Source: Acidobacteriota bacterium
GTDB lineage: Bacteria; Acidobacteriota; Polarisedimenticolia; J045
Direction: 5' to 3'
Assembly: GCA_030949985.1 (NCBI GenBank)
Contig: JAUZRX010000015.1
Span: 124,001 to 188,000, forward strand
DNA length: 64,000 bases
A program made the translations under genes and the position numbers. Shown in pieces: positions 58,887 through 63,956 of this stretch; the first letter of the stretch is position 1; the number at the start of each line of letters is the position of its first letter. Below the pieces are notes generated by a model. It searched no databases, had not been told where the DNA came from, and saw only the letters and a program-made list of their open reading frames with translations.

Positions 58887-59372
58887 ATGGCGGTTGAAAT
58901 GCGGATTCAGGGATTGATGATCGATCCCATCACCACTATGCCGCTCTTGGTTCTCCGGGATCCCCGGACCGATGCCAAGCTTCCGATCTGGGTGGCCGTC
59001 TTCGAGGCGAACGCCATCGCGACCGAACTCGAAAAGGTCAAGACGCCACGGCCGATGACCCATGACCTGCTGCAGAGCCTGCTGCGGGAACTGGGTGGCC
59101 GTTTGCGCAAGGTGACGGTGACCGATCTTCAGGACAACATCTTCTACGCCGTGCTGGAAGTGGAGTGCGGGGGAGAGATCCGGGAGATCGACGCCCGCCC
59201 CTCCGACGCCATCGCGCTGGCCCTGCGCTGCGGGGCTCCGATCTACGCTCGCCAGGAAGTGATCGAAGCCGCGCAGAACATCGACTTGACCCAGGGGCAC
59301 CGGGACTCCAAGCGGATCCGGGAGTGGTTGCAGGGCCTGGGGCAAAGCGAACTCGGCAAGTACGAAATCTGA
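58887..59372 (+). CDS. bifunctional nuclease (BFN/DUF151) domain protein
   Basis: The 161-residue protein has the DUF151 pattern: GLMIDPITTMPLLVLRD, LPIWVAVFEANAIA, MTHDLLQSLLRELGG and IDARPSDAIALALRCGAPIYA. The name comes from a plant protein with DNase and RNase activity; in bacteria the family is widespread and its role is unclear. It follows miaB, a common neighbour. It ends with a clear terminator. Confidence 0.9.
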   Translation: MAVEMRIQGLMIDPITTMPLLVLRDPRTDAKLPIWVAVFEANAIATELEKVKTPRPMTHDLLQSLLRELGGRLRKVTVTDLQDNIFYAVLEVECGGEIREIDARPSDAIALALRCGAPIYARQEVIEAAQNIDLTQGHRDSKRIREWLQGLGQSELGKYEI

Positions 59373-59654: not shown

Positions 59655-60402
<748 letters not shown>

Positions 60403-60410
<8 letters not shown>

Positions 60411-61269
60411 GGGAAGGGGACTGCCGCCGTCCGCGAGAATGCGGGCTGACGCCCATTTCGTGGACCATATCACCGCCGCACGCCCCGCGGCGGTGGGGCG
60501 CATGGTAGAGATCGATTTGATTCGGCCTAATCCGACCCAGCCTCGCCGGGAGTTGGCCGGCATCGAGGAGTTGGCTGAATCCGTGCGGGAAAAGGGGATC
60601 CTTGAGCCGATTCTCGTGCGGCCCCGGGAAGACGGCACCTTCGAGATCATCGCGGGGGAGCGGCGATACCACGCGGCGCGCCGGGTGGGCCTGGCCAACG
60701 TCCCCTGTATCGAGGTGGATGTGGATGATCGGGGGTGCCTGGAGATTTCCCTGATCGAGAACTTGCAGAGGCGGGACCTGACGCCTTTCGAAGAAGCCGA
60801 GGCGATTGCCCGGCTCGTGGAGGATTTTTCCTACACCCACGAACAGATAGCGCGCAAATTGGGGCGTTCCCGTACGAGCATCACTGAGCTCTTGAGCTTG
60901 AATCGGATGCCCCCGGCGGTCCAGGAGGCATGTCGGCGCGCCGACATCCGCACGAAAAGCACGCTGATGGAGATTGTTCGCCAGCCCACGGAGGAGGATA
61001 TGCTCTCCCTGGTGGCGGCGGTGGCCAGCGAGAGCCTGACGCGGGACGAGGTCCGCGAGCGGAAGCGTCGCGGGGGCGGTGGCGAGGGAAAGTCCGAAGG
61101 CTCCCGGGTTCGGCCCTACGTTTTTCGGTATAAGCCCCCGGGTCGGGACTTCAGCCTGAGTCTTCGCTTCGAGCGGGAGGTTGTCGAGCCCCGGGAGCTT
61201 CTCGTGACCCTGGAGGAGATCGTGAAGGATCTTCGCCGACAGGTGGCCGAGGAGGACGGGCGCGACTGA
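60403..61269 (+). CDS. parB: ParB/Spo0J family partition protein
   Basis: The 288-residue protein has the ParB nuclease-like N-terminal block (IRPNPTQPRRELAGIEELAESV, GILEPILVRP and IIAGERRYHAARRVG). It also has the helix-turn-helix (LSYTHEQIA-like FSYTHEQIARKLGRSRTSITELLSL). The N-terminal GERR motif for CTP binding is present. GTG start with GGAGGAGGT upstream, eight-base overlap with parA. The C-terminal dimer domain ends in LVTLEEIVKDLRRQVAEEDG. Confidence 0.93.
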
Positions 61270-61304: not shown

Positions 61305-61332
61305 ACTTTACATAATACGCCTTATCGGACAT
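61305..61332 (-). other. dif: dif-like site-specific recombination site
   Basis: Read on the minus strand, this 28-bp site has the arm ATGTCCGATAA, a 6-bp centre GGCGTA and the arm TTATGTAAAGT. This is the 11-6-11 layout of XerC/XerD dif sites. The XerD-side arm matches Bacillus dif at 10 of 11 bases and E. coli dif at 9 of 11. The XerC-side arm matches Bacillus at 7 of 11. It lies between parB and lptFG with no gene over it. The comparison used remembered dif sequences. Whether Xer recombinases act here is untested. Confidence 0.6.
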
Positions 61333-61550: not shown

Positions 61551-63956
61551 ATGAAGATCTGGAATCGACTCGACGGCTACGTGCTGCGGGAAATTCGTTC
61601 CCCGTTCTTTCTCGCCGTTGTCGGCTTCACCTTCGTTCTGCTTCTCAACTACCTCTTCCTGCTCGCCCAGCAGACCATCGAAAAGGCTGTGCCGGTTCAG
61701 CTGGTTCTCGGATTTCTCCTGGCTCGACTGCCCGGGTTCCTGACCCTGACGATTCCCATGGGCGCTCTGCTCGGGGTTCTGGTGGGCATCGGCCGCCTGG
61801 CCGGCCAGCATGAGATCGTCGCCCTGCGTTCCGTGGGCGTATCGGTGGGCCGACTGTTCCGGCCCGTGATCCTGGCGGCCATGCTGTTGACCGTGCTGGA
61901 TCTGGGGGTCTCCCATTACCTGCATCCCATGGGCCGGCTCAAGGAGCGGGCGCTGTTTCAGGAGATCCTGCGCGCCCGGGATTTTTCCCGGGAAGTCGAT
62001 CCTGGAGTGTTTTTCGACCGTCTGCCCGGGGCCGTACTATTCGCCTCGCGTTCGCGATCCTCCACGGAAGGGCGAGTCTTCGAGGGTGTTCTGCTCTATC
62101 GCGAAGGCAGCCAGCGGGGCACGACCGACCTGATCCTGGCCCGCCGCGGCCAGGGTGATTTCGACCGCGACACCGGGCAGGTCTCGCTGCGCCTCGATGA
62201 CGTGGAATGGCACGTGGTCGACCCGGCCCGTCCGGAGACCTACACGGTGGTGCGCACCCCCCACGAGACGCTCAACTTCCCGCCGGACCCACGCTTCCTG
62301 GCCCGCCGGCGCCTGGGCAAGGTTTCCGGTCAGAAAGAACTGGTGGGGCTCGATCTCTATCGAAGCGTGGCCCGGCGGGTCCGCGAGGTGGCGACGGCTC
62401 CCAGCGAGGGCAGCCGGATAGCCGCCAAGGTCAAGCTGCGTAAGGCGGTGATCGAGCTGTCCCACCGGTGGGCCTACCCTGCTGCGGTGCTGGTGCTGGT
62501 CTTCGCGGCTTTTCCCCTGGCGGCGCGAACCCGGCGCGGCGGGCGTTTTGCCGGATTTGCCCAGGCGATGGGTATTATTTTCGCCTTTTGGTTGCTTTTT
62601 TCCATCGGTGACGGTCTTTCCGAGCAAGGGACCCTGCCCCCCTGGGCGGGCTCGTGGCTGGCCCACCTGGTGATCCTGGCCTGGGGCGTCACGCTCTGGC
62701 TGGCCCTCCTGCGGGAGCGAGGAGAGGGCGCGGGCCTGCTTGCCCGCCTGCCGGCCGCCGTCGGGGGACTTCTGCGCCGGCGGTGGGGGGCCGGCGGGCA
62801 GGAGCGGCGCCGCGGCCCGCGGTGGGTGCAACAGGATCGATGGGGAGGCCTGACGCGGCTGGATACCTACCTGGCGTCCGGACACCTGCGCATGTTGGGG
62901 ATCTCTCTCGGCGTGCTGGTGGCCCTGGTGCTTGCGGTGGGCCTCAAGCAGGCCATCGACAGCGTCGATCCGGCCGCCACGCGCTTCCCATGGGCCGATG
63001 TCTTTTATTTCGTTGGATTTTCGCTTCCTGGCCAGCTCCAGTTTCTCTTCCCGGTGGCCGCCCTTTTCGGGGTGATGATCTCGCTGGCGGCCCTGGCCCG
63101 CGGCGGCGAGGTGATGGCCCTCAAGTCCTGTGGAATCGGCCCGGCGAGGATCTCGTGGCCGTTGCTGATCGTCACGCTGCTGCTCTCCCTCGTCTATGCG
63201 GCTGCCCAGGAGTCGGTGGTGCCCGCCGCCGAGCGGGAGGCCCAGCGCTCCCTGGACCGCATCAAGGGCCGTACACGGGTGGAGGCCGTCAGCACGGGGC
63301 GCCGTTGGGTGGCGGGCGAGCCGGGGCATTTCTGGATCTATCTCGATTGGGATGGGGGCCGCGAAACGCTGGCCGCTCCGGGATACCTGCAGGTGGACCT
63401 GGATCGGGCCCGAGTGCTCGAACGGGTGGAGGCCAGGACGGCCCGCTACGAGGACGGTCGCTGGACTTTCGCGGAGGGCTGGCGGCGACGTTTCGGCGGA
63501 GCCGATCGGCCTCGCTTCGAGAGTTTCGAGGCCCTGGATCTGCCGTTGGCGGAACGGCCGGCCCTGTTTGGCGCGACCCGGGGGCGACTTCTTTTCGACA
63601 AGAACCTGGCCGATCAGATGACCTTCCGCGAGTTGATGACCCACCTCCGGCGGGTTTCCCGGGCCGGTTATCCGGCGGCGGCGCTGCTGGTTGGCCTGCA
63701 CCGCAAGTTGATCAACCCGCTTCTGCCGCCCTTGCTGGTGTTGGTGGGCATTCCCCTGGTCGTAGGGGGATCCTCGCGGAGAGGGTCCCTCTTCGGCTTC
63801 GGCCTGGCGCTGCTGATCGCCTTCGGGTTTTGGGCCCTGCTGGCGGTGACCACGTCGCTGGGACGTGAGGGGCTGCTCTCGCCGGCGGTGGCCGTCTGGG
63901 CCGCTCCCGCCATCCTGTTCGCGACGGGTTCCGTGCTGCTGGCCCGGGCGCGCTGA
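61551..63956 (+). CDS. LptF-LptG fused lipopolysaccharide export permease
   Basis: The 801-residue protein contains two LptF/LptG-type permease units in one chain. The first, about residues 1-400, starts WNRLDGYVLREIRSPFFLAVVGF, and the second, about 435-801, starts LTRLDTYLASGHLRMLGISLGV. Each has N-terminal and C-terminal membrane helices with a beta-jellyroll-like domain between (for example FEGVLLYREGS and FWIYLDWDGGRE). Separate LptF and LptG form the ABC transporter with LptB that pulls LPS out of the inner membrane. An Arg/Gly-rich linker joins the halves. No lptB is in the window. The ATG at 61551 has only a weak ribosome site. Confidence 0.9.
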   Translation: MKIWNRLDGYVLREIRSPFFLAVVGFTFVLLLNYLFLLAQQTIEKAVPVQLVLGFLLARLPGFLTLTIPMGALLGVLVGIGRLAGQHEIVALRSVGVSVGRLFRPVILAAMLLTVLDLGVSHYLHPMGRLKERALFQEILRARDFSREVDPGVFFDRLPGAVLFASRSRSSTEGRVFEGVLLYREGSQRGTTDLILARRGQGDFDRDTGQVSLRLDDVEWHVVDPARPETYTVVRTPHETLNFPPDPRFLARRRLGKVSGQKELVGLDLYRSVARRVREVATAPSEGSRIAAKVKLRKAVIELSHRWAYPAAVLVLVFAAFPLAARTRRGGRFAGFAQAMGIIFAFWLLFSIGDGLSEQGTLPPWAGSWLAHLVILAWGVTLWLALLRERGEGAGLLARLPAAVGGLLRRRWGAGGQERRRGPRWVQQDRWGGLTRLDTYLASGHLRMLGISLGVLVALVLAVGLKQAIDSVDPAATRFPWADVFYFVGFSLPGQLQFLFPVAALFGVMISLAALARGGEVMALKSCGIGPARISWPLLIVTLLLSLVYAAAQESVVPAAEREAQRSLDRIKGRTRVEAVSTGRRWVAGEPGHFWIYLDWDGGRETLAAPGYLQVDLDRARVLERVEARTARYEDGRWTFAEGWRRRFGGADRPRFESFEALDLPLAERPALFGATRGRLLFDKNLADQMTFRELMTHLRRVSRAGYPAAALLVGLHRKLINPLLPPLLVLVGIPLVVGGSSRRGSLFGFGLALLIAFGFWALLAVTTSLGREGLLSPAVAVWAAPAILFATGSVLLARAR

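Follow-up and report, generated by a model that had tools for sequence, protein, structure and literature searches.

The window, that is, the whole 64,000-nucleotide stretch analysed here (G000:C15:124001-188000), comes from a 3.71-Mb Acidobacteriota assembly in 133 contigs. The part of it under study carries the following features.

58887-59372, plus strand: bfn, bifunctional nuclease-domain gene (Pfam BFN_dom, E 1e-39), upstream neighbour outside the system
59655-60410, plus strand: parA2, deviant Walker-A ATPase of 251 aa with KGGVGKTT (Pfam AAA_31, E 7e-56)
60403-61269, plus strand: parB2, 288 aa, with a ParB_N CTPase domain and HTH_ParB (Pfam/NCBIfam)
60930-60947, no strand assigned: candidate parS2, an 18-bp perfect palindrome ATGTCGGCGCGCCGACAT lying within the coding sequence of parB2, 357 bp away from dif
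61305-61332, minus strand: dif, ATGTCCGATAA / GGCGTA / TTATGTAAAGT (XerC arm / centre / XerD arm, 5' to 3' on the minus strand)
61551-63956, plus strand: lptF-lptG fusion in one ORF (TIGR04407 and TIGR04408), downstream of dif and outside the system

The parA2-parB2 pair has the gene content of a ParABS system, namely a ParA with a deviant Walker A motif and an adjoining ParB with ParB_N and HTH domains. The GTG start of parB2 overlaps the parA2 stop, and ParB2 exhibits sequence similarity to solved ParB, Spo0J and Noc. The genes flanking dif are co-directional, as the first-pass annotation of this DNA had reported. In the 801-aa LptF-LptG fusion, TIGR04407 covers residues 7-382 and TIGR04408 residues 437-799; in family f6 relatives merely ~400-440 aa align to it, suggesting separate genes.

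The 28-bp element lies in the parB2-lptFG intergenic gap. Its minus-strand sequence shows the 11-6-11 layout of a XerC/XerD site, with 11-bp arms, a 6-bp centre and a XerD arm that fits TTATGTNAANT; both the layout and the near identity of this arm to known dif arms had been pointed out in the first-pass annotation, and both held. With up to three mismatches allowed, the site occurred once in the window and never in 100 dinucleotide shuffles. The degenerate pattern TCCGATAAN6TTATGTNAANY had one match in the entire assembly and none when read backwards, as expected of a site present once per chromosome, and the equally good second match that would have spoken against dif was not found. An orthologous site was found after parB2 in relatives. 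As to the recombination genes, whose presence was another check proposed at the outset, the genome encodes a XerD that exceeds the curated cut-off, a paralogue resembling XerC (not typed on its own) and, on the same contig, an FtsK with a gamma domain 28 kb from dif (G000:C15:213296-213478, beyond the window). Apart from the XerC arm variants TCCGATAA/TCGCATAA, all this resembles ordinary dif/XerCD dimer resolution, with a unique 28-bp terminus site and its XerD, XerC-like and FtsK genes. Two neighbouring XerD-like tyrosine recombinase matches, separate from the main XerC/XerD, were also noticed at G000:C123:5307-6769. Another genome, G108, has nine dif-like sites with differing centres over several contigs; these may represent Xer-exploiting elements or dif modules of plasmids.

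A dif site is expected to mark the terminus. On its own contig, GC skew was ~+0.055 left of dif and fell to ~0 at the contig end 29 kb to the right, with no clear sign change before that end. The octamer GGGNAGGG, the FtsK-orienting KOPS by the E. coli consensus, showed a forward:reverse ratio of 61:12 left of dif and 3:10 right of it (polarity flip, p=3e-5). Terminus geometry was also read from G020, a relative of the same class assembled as a single 5.985-Mb contig, for which skew and KOPS were taken from sampled stretches. Its orthologous, unique dif lies at 0.8167 Mb and dnaA at 3.665 Mb, 2.85 Mb apart, or 47.6% of the circle. From dnaA to ~0.62 Mb the skew had mostly positive values; at 0.73-0.81 Mb it was close to zero, and from 0.814 Mb onwards it stayed negative, that is, it turned at dif. 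KOPS ratios for the two arms were 46:16 and 20:48 (flip, p=3e-7). In the Aminicenantes chromosome G060/CP070750.1, dif and dnaA are separated by 41% of the circle; GC skew was irregular or flat, and uninformative, in this chromosome and in G145. G003 (one contig, 74% complete, without a full dnaA), in which ParB1 and dif are only 0.58 Mb apart, was left out of the replichore geometry. The terminus position and skew shift anticipated for dif were thus borne out: KOPS polarity reverses at the site and skew turns in G020, though skew on the contig itself only declines. The Xer and FtsK genes, the KOPS flip, and the skew and dnaA distance in G020 together indicated that the window lies at the terminus and that the 28-bp site is, as had been supposed and as far as sequence can tell, the chromosome dif of this genome, XerCD recombination itself being inferred.

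ParABS is understood as an origin-segregation machine, and terminus segregation is credited to FtsK, MatP and entropy. The first-pass annotation considered an origin-type parAB beside dif unexpected. The parAB genes are indeed at dif, but the origin pair is elsewhere. The genome has two ParB genes: ParB2 in the window, and ParB1 on another contig (C33) with two TGTTCCACGTGGAACA parS sites within ~2 kb. In relatives, ParB1 was close to dnaA (26 kb in G020, 6 kb in G041, 10 kb in G044, 9 kb in G023 and in G059, 14 kb in G054). Canonical-type parS sites thus go with ParB1, and ParAB2, located at dif, satisfies neither canonical parS nor origin proximity. In a tree of 93 ParB sequences (a quick tree, not a careful search), the 49 ParB2 rows formed a single clade (SH-aLRT 100) that tracked host taxonomy, and Acidobacteriota ParB1 clustered with canonical ParB. 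ParA2 likewise formed a single clade (SH-aLRT 100, with long-branch warnings). Outside Acidobacteriota, the 80 genome-collection loci that were retained had nothing but canonical ParB, which matched the query only in part; one relative labelled Acidimicrobiia branched within Acidobacteriota rows. Several Acidobacteriota groups had neither ParB2 nor parS2, showing that the system is not universal. A normal origin parAB misplaced by assembly was excluded by the separate canonical ParB1 and its parS sites, and by recurrence in independent genomes, including the one-contig G020. The dif-adjacent parAB, to judge from these comparisons, is not the origin system; it is a second, separate system with its own predicted palindrome.

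Residues of Caulobacter ParB that contact parS include Q162, R173, N178, G201 and R204 (PMC7383237). In ParB2, Q162 is replaced by an invariant H146 and N178 by an invariant E162, and R173 is retained as an invariant R157. G201 and R204 correspond to K/R185 and an invariant L188, respectively, an equivalence that is in part assumed. In ParB1 proteins from the phylum, the residue equivalent to 178 is still the canonical N. Such replacements led us to expect that ParB2 recognizes a changed DNA site.

In relatives, the stretch that follows parB2 revealed an 18-bp palindrome, ATGTCGGC-NN-GCCGACAT. Exactly one perfect copy, adjoining dif, was present in G000, G002, G014, G016, G020, G023, G024 and G030. 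The exact 16-mer occurred in 68 of 159 Acidobacteriota genomes (3 for a reversed-pattern control), usually once, otherwise mostly in clusters over 5-53 kb. Its sequence stays constant while its position shifts: inside parB2, directly behind parB2 in the parB2-dif gap, or upstream of parA2. Where it is embedded in parB2 it encodes CR[RQL]ADI, and the Cys codon was TGT in 22/22 genes despite high GC, next to CGG, GCC (one GCA) and GAC. In genes with a similar CR motif and parS2 elsewhere, the codon was TGC in 8/9 and TGT in 1/9 (L072: TGC CGA CTC GCG GAT; Fisher p=1e-6, without correction for phylogeny). This freezing of TGT where parS2 is embedded points to selection on the DNA and not on the protein. 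Mere coding conservation of CR[RQL]ADI was ruled out, since the palindrome is also found in noncoding DNA and codon choice is unconstrained in genes whose site lies outside them. A conserved palindrome, TGTCGGCNNGCCGACA, thus lies near the ParAB2 operon, and we propose ATGTCGGC-NN-GCCGACAT as the putative ParB2/ParA2 centromere "parS2", its binding by ParB2 being an inference. Beside the most diverged ParB2 (L074, L077, L080, L185, L187 and L188), a search for palindromes gave nothing consistent. At L240-L248 (G122, G143 and contig 1 of G178), 2-4 parS2 sites are spread over 34-53 kb around ParB2, and the pattern search turned up no dif.

We then have a ParAB pair, a palindrome and dif side by side. 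Our preferred reading, with a probability of roughly 0.7, is that parA2-parB2-parS2 makes up an additional chromosomal ParABS, independent of the origin system and devoted to the terminus, its function and DNA binding being inferred. Roughly 60 genomes from ~25 families had dif within ~2.5 kb of ParB2/parS2, a count summed over several tables in which a few genomes may appear twice between collections. The distance was 13-73 kb in G044, G071, G081 and G099; in other carriers, dif was on a different contig or was not recognized. In G050, 62 kb separate ParB2 from ParB1, and dif is not beside ParB2. In family f53 (G117:C3:441369-442337), a more diverged ParB2 sits directly beside dif with no parS2 motif near either, and its divergence suggests that the site has probably changed; a parS2 match 355 kb from dif in this genome was judged stray, given that its ParB2 is at dif.

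This association might reflect hitch-hiking, parAB2 being just a supernumerary partition or regulatory operon within a gene block that rearranges slowly, adjoining dif without functional link. As a matter of principle dif could be inherited with the block rpsA-IHF-miaB-bfn-parA2-parB2-dif-lptFG, which is conserved as a whole in Thermoanaerobaculia-like relatives. Yet seven Aminicenantes loci have none of rpsA, IHF, miaB, bfn and lptFG nearby, and in these loci parA2, parB2, parS2 (with 1-2 mismatches in two of the seven) and dif remain together. Moreover, dif is inverted relative to parB2 in L072, L073, L177 and L191, and the proximity is kept. Operon hitch-hiking explains the association poorly in view of these two observations, and we consider it unlikely, though not negligible.

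Another possibility is that ParB2 at parS2 acts in the manner of Noc or MatP, controlling the divisome or SMC at the terminus instead of moving DNA by a ParA gradient. The best NCBIfam match of ParB2 is in fact the nucleoid occlusion protein Noc. Noc is a ParB paralogue with a different DNA site (PMC7383237), and MatP is a terminus DNA-binding protein able to act on division (PMC7394560). But the Noc match reached 154.4 bits, under the cut-off of 315, and of the Noc residues Q173/K179/K184/R201, the equivalent of Q173 is the invariant R157 of ParB2, so that ParB2 did not qualify as Noc. Also against it, a ParA2 with an intact deviant Walker A motif is encoded together with ParB2, their start and stop codons overlapping, and forms a matching clade. 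This explanation, too, appears improbable to us. Very little speaks for a relic of a plasmid or Xer-exploiting element that integrated its parABS at an ancestral dif, for although such elements do integrate at dif (PMC9765430) and plasmids carry parABS, no relative of ParB2 with 80% query coverage was found among the best 5000 plasmid records, the genes track host phylogeny across the phylum, and parS2 is fixed over such divergence, implying continued use. The best listed plasmid relatives share ~38% identity across 70% of the query, and a recent plasmid or mobile origin was rejected on that basis; a mobile element could still be the ultimate source of parABS2.

Compared with known systems, the proposed terminus ParABS shares with chromosomal ParABS (ParA/Soj, ParB/Spo0J, parS TGTTTCACGTGAAACA) a ParA Walker ATPase, a ParB CTPase with HTH, and a 16-bp palindromic site at times inside parB. 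It differs in lying at dif and not at the origin, in coexisting with an origin ParABS, in its palindrome, in several parS-contacting residues and in a conserved ParB2 N-terminus, SKxRGLP...MRxDxHFV. As with Noc/NBS of Bacillus, a ParB paralogue would have evolved a second DNA site on the same chromosome, but ParB2 has its own ParA and adjoins dif. MatP/matS and FtsK-KOPS-XerCD/dif also act around dif at the terminus. In E. coli, 23 copies of the 13-bp matS are spread over 800 kb (PMC3330122), whereas here there is usually one palindrome beside dif, with a ParAB pair.

Established knowledge of ParABS (PMC7333895) underlies the mechanism that we envisage for the terminus system. ParB2-CTP would load at parS2 and slide over the dif region, and nucleoid-bound ParA2 would separate, move or position the sister termini. 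The dif sites would thereby be placed for FtsK/XerCD resolution and be clear of the division plane on time. With somewhat less assurance than for the locus itself, we think it probable that much of Acidobacteriota relies on two orthogonal ParABS for chromosome segregation, serving the origin and the terminus respectively, with the centromere of the latter locked to dif and actively placing sister termini for FtsK/XerCD resolution. In the literature searched, from which subscription papers were mostly missing, neither a chromosomal ParABS linked to the terminus nor any account of Acidobacteriota ParB came up; the main text of a 2025 survey of the ParB fold (PMC12704722) mentions neither Acidobacter nor a second or paralogous ParB. 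A terminus-dedicated chromosomal ParABS is therefore new with respect to that literature, provisionally so because of the missing papers.

ParB2-parS2 is a candidate orthogonal ParB-parS pair, and its association with dif provides a marker for locating the terminus in Acidobacteriota genomes and MAGs. ParAB2 also makes it possible to ask directly whether a ParABS must lie at the origin in order to function. If our reading is true, the last step of segregation in a major but little-studied phylum relies on an active partition motor.
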